DNA from: Actinomycetes bacterium
Lineage (GTDB): Bacteria; Actinomycetota; Acidimicrobiia; Acidimicrobiales; RAAP-2
Length of the DNA stretch: 43,842 bases
Assembly (NCBI GenBank): GCA_021781335.1
Contig: JAJXXA010000030.1
Location: 1-43,842, forward strand
Direction of reading: 5' to 3'
Positions 18,746 to 43,138 of the stretch are shown here, piece after piece (the stretch's first letter is position 1; each line of letters starts with the position of its first letter). The notes beneath the pieces are model-generated. The model was not told the DNA's origin and made no database searches. It saw nothing but the letters and a program-made list of their open reading frames with translations. The position numbers were made by a program, and so were the translations under genes.

Positions 18746-19663
18746 TCAGAGGGCGCGCTGGAGTCGTTGGTACGTCGCAGTGAATCCGTAGGCAGACCAG
18801 AAGAGAGCGGCTTCACGGTTTGACAGTCGCCACTGGGTTTCACAGAACTCGAAGCCGTCGTCGCGCGCGAGTGAGAGGGCGTGATCAACGAGTTGTCTCG
18901 CGACACCTCGACGTCGAAAGTCGTGGTCGACGGCAACCTCGCTAAGAAAGACGGTGTTCGGGTACGAACCTCGCCGCGCTGGAGCGCGAAAGGTGACGCA
19001 CTGGGCGACGACGCGCCCTTCGATCTCGAGGACGAGGTGGTTGTTATCGGGGTCCAAAAGCGTATCGCGCAAGTCACGTCGAATCGCTCTTCGCTCGCTC
19101 GGCGTTCGACGCTCGGGGGCGTCGCCCTGCGCCCGGTCCAGTTGCTCGTCGAGGTCGTAGGCGACGGGGAGATCCCTTCGCTCTGCTCGACGCACGACGT
19201 ACTCGTTTCGACGCCCTCGAGCACGTTCGCGTGACAGTACGAGTGCCCCACGTGTGGAAAAAGCTGTATAGCCCATGTCTCTCCAGCGCGTGACGTGCTC
19301 GTGCGTCGCGGAGCACCATACGAAATGGTGTCGTGCACCTCGATCTCGCCAATGGGTTGAAGCGAATTCGACGAGCGTTGTAAGGTCGCCGTTGTCGTCA
19401 GCGGAACTGCCGTCGGGTCCCGTCCATGCGGCGAGTTCGCCGCCGCCTTGGAGAAGTGCCGCATACAAGTGCGCGGTGATTTCACCATCACGCTCGAAGA
19501 CCCAGGTTGGTTCGGGTGAACCGAGCAGGGCGTTGCGCAGGGCGTCCACGTCGAAGGTCGGATTGATCAATGGGTTGCTCGCCGCGTCACTCGCGATCTG
19601 ACGATGCGCGCGCTCGAGCACCGCGTCGACGTCGGGTGCGAGCATCAAGCGTGGTGGCGTCAC
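18746..19663 (-). CDS. GNAT family N-acetyltransferase
   Basis: C-terminal LSEVAVDHDFRRRGVARQLVDHALSLARDDGFEFCETQWRLSNREAALFWSAYGF. Confidence 0.82.
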   Translation of the reverse strand: MTPPRLMLAPDVDAVLERAHRQIASDAASNPLINPTFDVDALRNALLGSPEPTWVFERDGEITAHLYAALLQGGGELAAWTGPDGSSADDNGDLTTLVEFASTHWRDRGARHHFVWCSATHEHVTRWRDMGYTAFSTRGALVLSRERARGRRNEYVVRRAERRDLPVAYDLDEQLDRAQGDAPERRTPSERRAIRRDLRDTLLDPDNNHLVLEIEGRVVAQCVTFRAPARRGSYPNTVFLSEVAVDHDFRRRGVARQLVDHALSLARDDGFEFCETQWRLSNREAALFWSAYGFTATYQRLQRAL

Positions 19664-20363: not shown

Positions 20364-20837
20364 TCAGAGGTGCTTCGTAAATCGAGTTGCTGAATGGTGG
20401 GTGAACGCTCCGTCGGGAAAGTCCTCGATGCGTTGCCACCCGTGCTTCGGATAGAAACGAAGCGCTTCAGGTTGCTCGTCGCCGGTCTCGAGGAAGAGCA
20501 CGCGAAATCCAAGTTCCCGAGCCCTCGCTTCGAGCGCGTTCATCAAGAGGTTGGCGACGCCGCCGCGACGAAGGTCGGGTCGCACCCAGAGGCGTTTGAC
20601 CTCGCCCGCTTCAAGCTCAGGCCGACCGATCGCACGAAGCCCCACACCACCGGCGAGGTGCCCATTCGAGCGCGCGACGAGGTAGCAACCGAGTGGGGGG
20701 CTGAGCTCATCAAGGTGTGTTGCCATGTCGTCCTCGACCGATCCGTAGCGCCGGTTGAGTTCGTCAGTAGCGGCGAGTACAACGCTGAGCGCTCCGGGTG
20801 AAGCGATTGATTCTTCGTGAATATCAATATCTGGCAC
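20364..20837 (-). CDS. GNAT family N-acetyltransferase
   Basis: AGEVKRLWVRPDLRRGGVANLLMNALEARARELGFRVLFLETGDEQPEALRFYPKHGW. Confidence 0.88.
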   Translation of the reverse strand: MPDIDIHEESIASPGALSVVLAATDELNRRYGSVEDDMATHLDELSPPLGCYLVARSNGHLAGGVGLRAIGRPELEAGEVKRLWVRPDLRRGGVANLLMNALEARARELGFRVLFLETGDEQPEALRFYPKHGWQRIEDFPDGAFTHHSATRFTKHL

Positions 20838-20910
20838 CTCAGCAGCGTAGGGGCCAGGCCTGAGGCAACCACATGTTCAGTACGATGGACTCACTCATTG
20901 AAGGAGAACC

Positions 20911-23900
20911 GTGTTTCGCCCCGTAAGTGCCGAACTTGATTTTGTGACCATCGAGGAAGCTGAACTCACCCGGTGGAAGACGAACGACGTCTTTGCTCGT
21001 TCGATGAAGGAACGTGAGGGCGCGACGCCGTGGGTCTTCTACGAAGGGCCTCCTACCGCGAACGGCATGCCGGGGCTTCATCACGTGTGGGCTCGCGTCT
21101 ACAAGGATCTCTTCTGTCGCTACCAGACCATGCAAGGACATTTTGTGGCGCGCCGTGCCGGATGGGATACGCACGGACTCCCCGTTGAAGTGCAGGTCGA
21201 GAAGCAGCTCGGCATCTCTGGAAAGAAAGCGATCGAAGAACAGATCGGCATCGAGGAGTTCACGAGGCTCTGTCGCGAGTCGGTCATGACCTACGTCGGG
21301 GAATTCGAGAAGCTCACCGAGCGGATCGGCTATTGGACGGACATCGAGCACGCTTATTACACGTATCACCCTTCGTACGTCGAGTCGGTGTGGTGGCAAC
21401 TGCAACAGTTGTTCGAACGAGGCCTGTTGTACGAAGACCTCAAGGTCGTGCCCTACTGTCCGCGTTGCGGTACGGCGCTGTCGAGTCACGAACTCGGCCA
21501 GCCCGGCGTCTACACCGATGAAGTTGATGAGAGCTGTTACATACAACTGCGCATCACTGACGCGCACGAACACGGCGGATTGCACGGCGCCACGCATTTG
21601 ACGGTGTGGACAACGACGCCCTGGACACTCTTGTCCAACGTCGCCATTGCGGTCAATCCGGACGTTACCTACGCAGTGGTCGATGGTCGAGTGGTGGCGG
21701 CGTCGTTGGTCGAGGACGTCTTTGGTGAGGATGCGGTGGTGAGCGCGACGTTGCTCGGGCGCGACCTGGTCGGAGTGCACTACGAGCGACCGTTCGATGA
21801 CGTGGCGTTCCCCGACGGCGTCGATGCCTGTTTTGTCGTCGCGGCGCAGTACGTGACGACCGATGACGGCACTGGTCTGGTGCATCAGTCACCGGCCTTC
21901 GGCGAGATTGACCGCCAAGTCGCCCGTGAGAATTCTCTGCCGACACTGAATCCGGTCGGCGCCGACGGCTGTTTCACCGACGCCGTCAAATGGTTGGAAG
22001 GGCAAGGCGTTCGTAACGCAAACGCCGCTATCAATGATGAACTTGAGCGCCGTGGAATCTTGCTTCGACGCCACGACTACCAACACTCGCTCCCGCACTG
22101 CTGGCGCTGCGGCACAGTGCTCATCTATTGGGGAAAGCCCAGTTGGTACATTGCGACGAGCCAGTTCAAGCAGAAGATGCTCGACGAGAATGCCACTATC
22201 GACTGGCACCCAGGCCACATCCGCGACGGACGATTCGGTGAGTGGCTATCGAACAACGTGGACTGGGCGCTGTCGCGTGACCGGTTCTGGGGCACGCCGC
22301 TACCCATTTGGCGCTGTGACGACGGTCATCTCACGTGCATTGGTTCGCGCGCTGAGCTGTCCGGTCTCACTGGCCGTGATCTGAGCGACCTCGACCCTCA
22401 CCGTCCGGCGATTGATGACGTGACGTTCGCCTGTGGGACCTGTGGCGGCGAGGCGCGCCGCGTGGAGCCGGTTATCGACGCATGGTTCGACTCTGGCGCG
22501 ATGCCCGCTGCTCAAGTGGGCTACCCCCACGTCGAGGGCAGCGAGCGAGCCATGCAGTTCCCGGCGCAACTGGTGGCCGAGGCGATTGACCAGACGAGGG
22601 GGTGGTTCTATTCGCTCTTGGCAGTAAATACCCTGGTCTTCGGTGAGAAGCCCTACGAGCATGTTCTGTGTCTCGGCCACATTGTGGATGAGAACGGCAA
22701 GAAGATGAGCAAGTCCGTCGGCAATGTGATCGACCCGTGGGAAGTCCTCAATACGCGCGGCGCTGACCCGCTTCGTTGGTGGATGTTCTCGCAAGGTTCT
22801 CCGTGGACGTCGACGCGGGCCAGCTTGAACGCGATCGATACCTCACTGCGAGAGACGCTCGCCACGTTGTGGAACACGTTCAGCTTCTTTACGACCTACG
22901 CATCGCTCAACAACTTCGACCCCGATGATCCCGAGATCCCTGAAGTCCACGAGCGCAGCGCGATCGACCAGTGGATCTTGTCACGCCTTGAAGGCGTGAC
23001 GGTCGAGGTCACGACCGCGCTCGACGGCTACGAACCGCTTGGCGGCACGGACGCCTTGTCGTCGTTGATCGATGACCTCTCCAATTGGTACGTGCGTCGT
23101 AGTCGTCGTCGATTCTGGCGCACCGATCCCACCGCGCCACGTTCAGATTCGCTAGCCGCCCAGGCCACGTTGCTCGACGTGCTCCAGCGCGTGACGCTGC
23201 TGCTTGCGCCATTCTGTCCCTTCATCTCGGAGCGGTTGTACCGAGAACTCTTTGACGTCGATGAGCAAGCTTCGGTGCACCTCGTTGATTGGCCGGTCGC
23301 GCGCTTGGAGCGTCGCAATGTTTCCCTTGAGGCTTCGATGGACGTGGCGCGCGGGCTCACCTCACTGGGGCGCGCCGCGCGCGCGGAGGCCGGCATCAAA
23401 GTACGTCAGCCTCTCGCACGCGCGCTGGTGTTTCTTCCACCGGGCGCACCGATGCCACCCGCGGGAGTCGTGGAGGATGAACTGAACGTCGACGTCTTGG
23501 AGTATGGGTCAGAGCTCGCAGATGTCTTGACCTTTGAGCTCGTGCCGAATTTTCGAATGGTGGGCCCGCGCCTGGGCGAGGCGGTGAAGGAACTCAAGCC
23601 TGCGCTTTCAAAGCTTGATTCGGTGGCGAGCGCCGCCACACTCGAGGCGGGTGGGGCGATCAAGGTCACGCTGTCGACGGGAACTTTCGAGCTCTCGGGC
23701 GAAGACCTGGAACTTCGAGTGAAGAGCCAGGGAGGGTTTGCGGTCTCGAGGGATGGGGGGGAAGTCATTGCGCTGGACCTCACACTCAACGATGATCTCC
23801 TTCGACGCGGGTACCTGCGTGATGTGGTGCGCCAAGTGCAAGACCTGAGAAAGAACTCCGGGTTCGACGTGTCGGACCGGATCATCTTGCACGTCACCGG

Positions 23901-24045
23901 CATTGAGGACTTGAGTGACGGGTTCGCGACCTTGGCCAGCGAAGTGCTCGCGAGCGAGGTCATCGTCGGTCGGGGTCTCGGCGACGGTACCGCTCTCGAG
24001 CTCGACGACGGGCGCGACGCCAGGGCGTGGGTGGCGCGGGTCTAG
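20911..24045 (+). CDS. ileS: Isoleucyl-tRNA synthetase, IleRS2 (eukaryote-like) type
   Basis: 1044 aa; RAGWDTHGLPVEVQVEKQLG, TTTPWTLLSNVA editing-domain motif, KKMSKSVGNVIDP; the HIGH region reads PTANGMPGLHHVWARVYKDLF. Confidence 0.96.
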   Translation: MFRPVSAELDFVTIEEAELTRWKTNDVFARSMKEREGATPWVFYEGPPTANGMPGLHHVWARVYKDLFCRYQTMQGHFVARRAGWDTHGLPVEVQVEKQLGISGKKAIEEQIGIEEFTRLCRESVMTYVGEFEKLTERIGYWTDIEHAYYTYHPSYVESVWWQLQQLFERGLLYEDLKVVPYCPRCGTALSSHELGQPGVYTDEVDESCYIQLRITDAHEHGGLHGATHLTVWTTTPWTLLSNVAIAVNPDVTYAVVDGRVVAASLVEDVFGEDAVVSATLLGRDLVGVHYERPFDDVAFPDGVDACFVVAAQYVTTDDGTGLVHQSPAFGEIDRQVARENSLPTLNPVGADGCFTDAVKWLEGQGVRNANAAINDELERRGILLRRHDYQHSLPHCWRCGTVLIYWGKPSWYIATSQFKQKMLDENATIDWHPGHIRDGRFGEWLSNNVDWALSRDRFWGTPLPIWRCDDGHLTCIGSRAELSGLTGRDLSDLDPHRPAIDDVTFACGTCGGEARRVEPVIDAWFDSGAMPAAQVGYPHVEGSERAMQFPAQLVAEAIDQTRGWFYSLLAVNTLVFGEKPYEHVLCLGHIVDENGKKMSKSVGNVIDPWEVLNTRGADPLRWWMFSQGSPWTSTRASLNAIDTSLRETLATLWNTFSFFTTYASLNNFDPDDPEIPEVHERSAIDQWILSRLEGVTVEVTTALDGYEPLGGTDALSSLIDDLSNWYVRRSRRRFWRTDPTAPRSDSLAAQATLLDVLQRVTLLLAPFCPFISERLYRELFDVDEQASVHLVDWPVARLERRNVSLEASMDVARGLTSLGRAARAEAGIKVRQPLARALVFLPPGAPMPPAGVVEDELNVDVLEYGSELADVLTFELVPNFRMVGPRLGEAVKELKPALSKLDSVASAATLEAGGAIKVTLSTGTFELSGEDLELRVKSQGGFAVSRDGGEVIALDLTLNDDLLRRGYLRDVVRQVQDLRKNSGFDVSDRIILHVTGIEDLSDGFATLASEVLASEVIVGRGLGDGTALELDDGRDARAWVARV

Positions 24046-40932: not shown

Positions 40933-41604
40933 TCAGCGCGTGACGCTCGCGAACTTGGTGAAAACCACGATATTGGCGAGGTAGCTGCCCGTCGCGTGGT
41001 CGAATGCCCCGCCGCATGTCACGAGATTCAACTCGCGTGCGCCGGGTTTGTCGAGCGCTCCATAGACCAGCTGGTCGGGGAAGCCAGACTTCGAGTATTG
41101 GACGACTTTGGTGACGACGAAGTTGACCTTCACGCCATCTGAAAGCCCAACGGTGACGAGTGCACCCGGATGAAGGGTTCGAATATAGAAGAACACCCCA
41201 GGTCCCTTGTACGAGTCGACGTGGGCGAGGATGACCGACGAACCCTCTTGTCCGGGTGTAGGACCGTATTTGAACCAGCCCGCAGTCTTGGTGGTGGCGG
41301 GGACCATCACTTGTCCGTTCGCCAACAAGCCAAGTTCGCCCACACTCGTGGTCACGCCAATCGAGGGAATCGAGAGTGTGCGCGGCACTGATGACGCCAC
41401 GCGTACTGAACTGATGTCAGTCGTACGCGTGGTGACGGGGGCGACAGTGGAGACAGGGGTCGAAGTCAAGACTACGGACTTCGGATTGCTGGCCGGTACG
41501 AAAGTACTAGCCAGCAATCCCAGCCCGACGATGAGGACCACCAGAGCGGTCGTCCACCACATCACTTCAGACTTCGAGCGCCGCCTACGGCCTTCGCGTG
41601 ACAT
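40933..41604 (-). CDS. Class F-like sortase
   Basis: N-terminal TM; LSIPSIGVTTSVGELG...VILAHVDSYKGPGVFF...LNLVTCGGAFDHATGSYLANIVVF with catalytic His and Cys motifs. Confidence 0.85.
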   Translation of the reverse strand: MSREGRRRRSKSEVMWWTTALVVLIVGLGLLASTFVPASNPKSVVLTSTPVSTVAPVTTRTTDISSVRVASSVPRTLSIPSIGVTTSVGELGLLANGQVMVPATTKTAGWFKYGPTPGQEGSSVILAHVDSYKGPGVFFYIRTLHPGALVTVGLSDGVKVNFVVTKVVQYSKSGFPDQLVYGALDKPGARELNLVTCGGAFDHATGSYLANIVVFTKFASVTR

Positions 41605-42673
41605 CCGTATTGTTCAGAGTCCGACGACGACGTGATCGTATGGCTGCGCCACTTGCGATCATCGCGAGGCCAATCGCACTCAAGCCAAGGGGCAAGAGTG
41701 GTGAAGAGCCTGATCCGGCCGTTCCGCCGAAGCCAGTGCCCGGTGCGCCGACGGGAACGACTGTCGTAGGTGTGGTCGTTGTGGTCGTTGCGCGCGTCGT
41801 TGTTGTTGTCACCGGCGCGGCCGTGGTGGTGGTCGATGAAGGCACTGTGGTAGTCGTGGTTGTAACGGCGGCTGCGCACACGGGGACGGTGATGTTGTTA
41901 CCGTCAAGCGTGACTGCCCCGTTTCTAGCGAGCACGCGGCCGCTCAAGGTCGCACCGGTGTTCATCGTTGCCGAACTAAGGGCCATAATCGTCCCGACCA
42001 TGTGACTCGTGGTACCAATCGTTGCCGACGAACCAACCTGCCAGAAGATATTGCAGGCCTGGGCGCCGTTCTCCAACACCACATTGCTGCCCGAAGCGGT
42101 TGTCAAGGTCGAACCAGCTTGAAAGATGAAGACGGCATCAGCGTTGCCGCCACCGTTTAGTGTCAAAGTACCAGTCAAGCCCATGCTCGTTGAAGACGCG
42201 TAGGTGCCCGGAGTAAGGGTCGATCCACCCAGGTCACTGGGGGCTGTGGTGAAAGGTGTGGTGCCTGCGGCACTCAGGTACGCCGCCGTCAGTGACGTCT
42301 GAGCCGCGAGCGCTTGTGCGTTCGCTACGTAGGTTGTGCCTGAACTCTGAATGCCGGGCGGAAAGCCAGTGACCGCAGTACCAGGGCTGAGACCAATATC
42401 ACCAGCGACAGTGGTTGTTCCGGTGTTGGTGATCGTGGATCCGGCGAGGACGGCGAACGTCGATGCATTACCGAGGTTGATCGCAGTCGGTGCGGCGAAT
42501 GCGGCCGGTACACCAAACGCGGTGACGAGGGCAGCGACCAAGCCGCTGATACCCACTGCACCAATACCTACCTGCATGCGCGACACCGTAGGCACTCGAC
42601 GATGCTTGCCTCGCGGTGCGGGCGATAAGAGAGAATTGAAGCGAGAGTGCTTCGATGAATCTGAACGGGACAT
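41585..42673 (-). CDS. DUF3494 ice-binding-like surface protein with sortase-type C-terminal anchor
   Basis: INLGNASTFAVLAGSTITNTGTTTVAGDIGLSPGTAVTGFPPG... DUF3494 fold; Thr-rich stalk; C-terminal APGTG + hydrophobic segment + RSRRRR tail. ATG at 42673 with GGGAGG upstream. Confidence 0.88.
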   Translation of the reverse strand: MSRSDSSKHSRFNSLLSPAPRGKHRRVPTVSRMQVGIGAVGISGLVAALVTAFGVPAAFAAPTAINLGNASTFAVLAGSTITNTGTTTVAGDIGLSPGTAVTGFPPGIQSSGTTYVANAQALAAQTSLTAAYLSAAGTTPFTTAPSDLGGSTLTPGTYASSTSMGLTGTLTLNGGGNADAVFIFQAGSTLTTASGSNVVLENGAQACNIFWQVGSSATIGTTSHMVGTIMALSSATMNTGATLSGRVLARNGAVTLDGNNITVPVCAAAVTTTTTTVPSSTTTTAAPVTTTTTRATTTTTTPTTVVPVGAPGTGFGGTAGSGSSPLLPLGLSAIGLAMIASGAAIRSRRRRTLNNTDVTRRP

Positions 42674-43138
42674 GGTAGTCCTCCCGCAGCTCTCGTGTTC
42701 TGTCAACGTCAATTACGTTGAACAACGAGTCTGCTACTTCACCGACTCTAAGGGCGATCTTGCGAAGTCTGACAAACAACACGCGATTGTCACATTTGCC
42801 CTTGGCGCTTGTTACGCGCAGTTTGATGCACGAGAGTGGTCAAAGGACGGTGAGATTGCCTTGTGCGTTGATGATTGAAGAAATAACTGTTATTACTTAA
42901 ACAAGCAGACACGACCGTATGGTTTCCCTACAAAAGGAATAACAAGGAATTTCTCGGTGAAGTTAGTGGCGGACGCGGTTAGACCCCAAGAATCGAGTGG
43001 TCGTCAAGAGTCATTCGCCGTACGTTGAAGTGAAGCGAACTACACCGGTCGAGACGGTTCCTCTTCACGCCATGCTGCACTTATCGATACGGTGGGTATC
43101 TGCTCTTTGATTCATCACGGGCTGCGCTGGAGGCGAGT

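Follow-up and report, generated by a model that had tools for sequence, protein, structure and literature searches.

The ileS gene in the window, a 43,842-nucleotide stretch of DNA from an uncultured Acidimicrobiaceae-like, soil-type actinobacterium, very probably encodes a housekeeping type 2 isoleucyl-tRNA synthetase (IleRS2) with the known GXHH signature, an enzyme for which mupirocin binding is expected to require high micromolar to millimolar concentrations. It adds one more GXHH IleRS2 to a known and common group. Among other members of the host's order, however, we found signatures altered at the fourth position, a lead that exceeds the window gene itself in novelty.

Identity of the enzyme and of its signature

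The ileS product is 1,044 residues long (Table 1) and scores 877.5 bits against TIGR00392, the isoleucyl-tRNA synthetase equivalog, whose cut-off is 621.4. It retains the catalytic and editing hallmarks of the family, namely KMSKS, the editing threonines and the editing Asp. Its assignment to IleRS2 by the first-pass annotation is borne out by three features: the protein reads PPTANG (Thr/Phe replacing Tyr in the P-x-A-N signature region), it groups with IleRS2 and not with IleRS1 in our tree, and its best PDB matches are IleRS2 enzymes.

Table 1. Features of ileS and of its product (nucleotide positions are those of the window)
Feature	Position	Strand	Remarks
ileS, type 2 isoleucyl-tRNA synthetase	20911..24045	+	GTG start; profile matches, full-length match to homologues
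Probable ribosome-binding site, GAAGGAG	20900..20906	+	4 bases before GTG; read directly, function inferred
tRNA-synt_1 domain	residues 19-627		Pfam
Anticodon_1 domain	residues 686-835		Pfam
DUF5915 domain	residues 853-1022		Pfam
GLHH, class I signature, HXGH turned into GXHH by exchange of positions 1 and 3	21073..21084	+	residues 55-58
WTTTPWTL, threonine-rich peptide of editing domain	21607..21630	+	residues 233-240; invariant in 31 aligned IleRS
Asp334 of editing domain (GTGLVHQSPAFGEID)	21910..21912	+	invariant in 31 aligned IleRS
HPGH, chance HXGH-like string	22207..22218	+	residues 433-436; aligns to VPPH (Thermus) / YPDH (Priestia)
KMSKS, second class I motif, canonical	22702..22716	+	residues 598-602

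The signature itself is encoded in frame by the codons GGG CTT CAT CAC (Gly-Leu-His-His), and has the Gly or Ala at position 1 and the His at positions 3 and 4 that define the non-canonical GXHH class. Using phmmer, we aligned the segment PTANGMPGLHHVWARVYKDLF of the window protein with Thermus thermophilus IleRS2 (1ile) without gaps, GLHH falling opposite HVGH, and with PTANGLPGVHHALGRTIKD of the Priestia megaterium mutant 8c8w, where it falls opposite GVHH. G-L-H-H thus stands exactly where the first-pass annotation had placed it, and the Thermus sequence used for that comparison was correct. Could a canonical HXGH be hidden elsewhere in the protein? The sole such string, HPGH, is not the signature: it lies far from the signature helix, opposite unconserved positions of the Thermus and Priestia enzymes.

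The AlphaFold model (mean pLDDT 90.7), for which only sequences of the window and the loci served as input, places GLHH at the start of a helix spanning residues 56-74. The nearest structures retrieved by Foldseek are the P. megaterium IleRS2 entries, ranked before 1ile and all IleRS1 entries; they include 8c8w, the GVHH enzyme, deposited as 'mupirocin hyper-resistant HIGH motif mutant'.

Published relatives and predicted response to mupirocin

The literature link between GXHH and mupirocin hyper-resistance, made in the first-pass annotation, holds up. Brkic et al. (2023) described the G/AXHH IleRS2 enzymes and solved GVHH and HVGH structures of the P. megaterium enzyme (PMC10485003). Exchanging the motif in either direction in IleRS2 shifted the mupirocin Ki about 175- to 823-fold, at little catalytic cost, and the natural ALHH IleRS2 of Deinococcus radiodurans has a Ki of 6.6 mM (PMC10485003). 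The size of the effect varies with the enzyme background, since GVHH put into a canonical IleRS2 gives a Ki of only 35-460 uM (PMC10485003). The IleRS of Streptomyces griseus, which Brkic et al. report to have the non-canonical motif, has a Ki of 10 mM and can sustain the growth of Escherichia coli in the presence of mupirocin (PMC4861432).

The window enzyme shares with the G/AXHH group (PMC10485003) the fold of IleRS2, a GXHH where the canonical form is HXGH, a conserved KMSKS, the status of sole housekeeping ileS and a grouping with Streptomyces-like enzymes; it differs only in its second residue (Leu) and its organism. With S. griseus IleRS it has in common the GXHH class and a soil actinobacterial host, whereas the Streptomyces-like enzymes of our tree read GAHH. 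With only about 47% full-length identity to the window protein, this putatively Streptomyces-like pair (L135/L136) represents the closest relative with published biochemistry; it belongs to the same lineage in a quick maximum-likelihood tree rooted on Massilia/Luteimonas/Thiotrichaceae IleRS1. The window protein sits among the GXHH enzymes of the phylum in that tree, in which deep branches within the GXHH lineage are weakly supported. GIHH IleRS2 enzymes also occur in metagenome genomes labelled Gammaproteobacteria (L052-L055, L057), with 42-46% identity to the window protein.

The IleRS2 enzymes of T. thermophilus (1ile) and P. megaterium (8c8u) are of the same type and are the closest solved structures, but they carry the canonical HVGH and are resistant, not hyper-resistant (Ki 0.20 and 1.08 uM). 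The plasmid-borne MupA and MupB are likewise type 2 IleRS that lower mupirocin sensitivity; the window ileS, in contrast, is a chromosomal housekeeping gene, whose product scores 760.3 and 758.5 bits against the MupA and MupB exception profiles, below their cut-off of 1900, and therefore belongs to neither.

Because the window enzyme has every sequence property of the GXHH class, mupirocin hyper-resistance is predicted for it from its published GXHH relatives, which combine a millimolar-range Ki with near-normal catalysis. The mechanism would also be that of these relatives: the bulky His of GXHH would clash with mupirocin once the drug pushes the motif back, and owing to this clash binding of the drug by the window enzyme would take high micromolar to millimolar concentrations.

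Distribution, copy number and maintenance of GXHH

GLHH is present in 46/46 close homologues covering the site (73-94% identity), which come mostly from Acidimicrobiaceae metagenome-assembled genomes of peat, soil and freshwater, as well as in the four same-genus genomes checked (4/4); the GXHH pattern matches 9/9 genomes sampled from the family of the host. At the level of the phylum, we scanned the DNA of 397 sampled genomes for P-[T/S/A/P]-A-N-G-x-P-[G/A]-x-H-H and found [G/A]XHH in at least 187, a lower bound since the pattern misses contexts such as PTANA in L116. Among 118 sampled genomes of the host's order, 21 match GXHH, 82 match canonical HXGH and none matches both, an exclusion that holds even inside one family (f9). 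The HXGH matches follow the PFANGLPHYGH type; a second match in one genome (G429), PYANGPRHIGH, resembles MetRS. Judging from patterns that never co-occur, separate IleRS2 lineages stand in for each other within the order, which suggests that ileS has been replaced by a copy of another lineage. The GXHH trait is a widespread, shared lineage state and no peculiarity of the host.

The host genome (G000) has one ileS above cut-off. The search for a second copy found none, and its absence is likely, though short of certain in an assembly that is 88.8% complete. Each of the four same-genus genomes (97% completeness) also has one ileS above cut-off, so that no further copy turned up in any of the five, as a housekeeping role implies. 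The swapped signature is thereby confirmed in the only IleRS found in a member of an uncultured lineage.

Is the motif kept by descent alone? Hyper-resistance might be incidental to an ancient state of the lineage, with no present-day mupirocin selection on the host. The fixation of GXHH in the family and its presence in nearly half of the sampled phylum point this way, as do the little catalytic cost in published kinetics and the fact that the GXHH enzyme is the only ileS found, with no added resistance gene. However, past selection is inseparable from descent on these data, and Brkic et al. place at least two origins of the swap within IleRS2 (PMC10485003), which suggests some advantage. We consider the question evenly poised.

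Self-resistant IleRS copies are known in producers, and the window ileS could in principle be a dedicated copy of this kind beside a biosynthetic cluster for an IleRS inhibitor. This is very unlikely: no polyketide or peptide synthase and no antibiotic cluster was seen among the 20 largest or nearest window ORFs scanned, and no other ileS was found in the genome. The recognised neighbours among these 20 ORFs include mnmA-like, ligA, a PASTA kinase, gatA- and gatB-like genes and transporters. Neither a T-box nor any other regulatory RNA was detected upstream of ileS with Rfam, relaxed threshold included, and no tRNA gene was found in the window. Two GNAT acetyltransferase genes, at 18746-19663 (-) and 20364-20837 (-), flank a HAD-like hydrolase gene just upstream of ileS; unlike in the ileS-GNAT fusion family NF040702 (NCBIfam), GNAT and ileS are here separate genes, with GNAT on the opposite strand. 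Further along, at 41585-42712 (-), the window encodes a protein with an Ice_binding domain (PF11999, E 4.4e-60).

That GLHH is a sequencing or assembly error, or the protein an inactive IleRS-like one, is hardly credible even for a metagenome-assembled genome, since a motif shared by 46/46 close homologues is no chance or sequencing effect, the 1,044-residue frame is intact, every catalytic and editing hallmark is kept and no other ileS was found to do the job.

Since at least 187 of the 397 sampled genomes carry GXHH, much of the Actinomycetota is probably hyper-resistant to mupirocin intrinsically.

Other signatures in the order

Fifteen of the 118 order genomes match neither the GXHH nor the HXGH pattern, and we searched these with TIGR00392. 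One of them (L116) has GXHH after all, in a somewhat altered context. Four lack the last His, with HFGS (L115), HYGQ (L117) or HTGN (L118, L119), four carry AVHT or GVHT in a deep third lineage (L120, L121, L123, L125), and in six the N-terminus is missing or no full gene could be recognised.

A pattern search for HXG[N/S] in 397 order genomes returned 12: nine with HTGN, one with HFGS and two with HYGS. All nine HTGN genomes belong to a single family, f122 (L118, L119, L155-L163, L205, L206), and the HTGN enzyme is the only ileS above cut-off in the four of them checked (G443, G480, G535, G581). HFGS corresponds to L115/L164 (G442, 6% contamination) and HYGQ to L117 (G437); the HYGS pair, L165/L207 (G722) and L166/L204 (G657), is from another genus. 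By parsimony on a careful tree, the fourth position changed four times in the HXGH lineage (to N once, to S twice, to Q once), the HFGS, HYGS and HYGQ changes being separate from the HTGN clade. This clade is supported at 100/99 and HYGS is nested beside its canonical HYGH sisters L180 and L182, also at 100/99; the placement of HFGS and HYGQ is poorly supported. The idea that enzymes losing the fourth His also lose Asp560, within DQTRGWF, was rejected, as canonical HYGH enzymes of the lineage also lack Asp560.

The third lineage (PVTANK..[G/A]VHT) is present in the host's order, class and phylum (L120, L121, L123, L125, L169, L170, L178, L179, L208-L210). It occurs in 13 of the 397 genomes of the phylum sample, nine with GVHH and four with [G/A]VHT; the GVHH relatives in the phylum are L167, L168 and L171-L177.

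The variant-signature proteins exceed the IleRS cut-off and resemble eukaryote-type IleRS2, and theirs is the only ileS above cut-off wherever copy number was checked. A literature search that reached few subscription journals found no published description of an HXGN, HXGS, HXGQ or [G/A]VHT IleRS. On grounds of incompleteness, Brkic et al. dropped sequences 'lacking the catalytic motif' (PMC10485003), and such removal may be why these signatures went unreported. In laboratory-selected mupirocin-resistant Staphylococcus aureus, the fourth His is reported to have changed to Gln (cited in PMC10485003), and for this reason nature may, if the variant enzymes are active, have a second route to resistance in the loss of this residue. 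Our reading of these order-mates, from several Acidimicrobiales-type lineages in which the only ileS found has lost the last His (HTGN, HYGS, HFGS, HYGQ) or, in the third lineage, reads GVHT/AVHT, is tentative and falls somewhat short of an even chance: if active, these enzymes would make the supposedly invariant class I signature far more changeable in IleRS2 than reported. One order thus offers a natural series, HXGH, HXGN, HXGS, HXGQ, GXHH, GXHT and AXHT, which makes the role of each residue and its link to drug binding directly testable.
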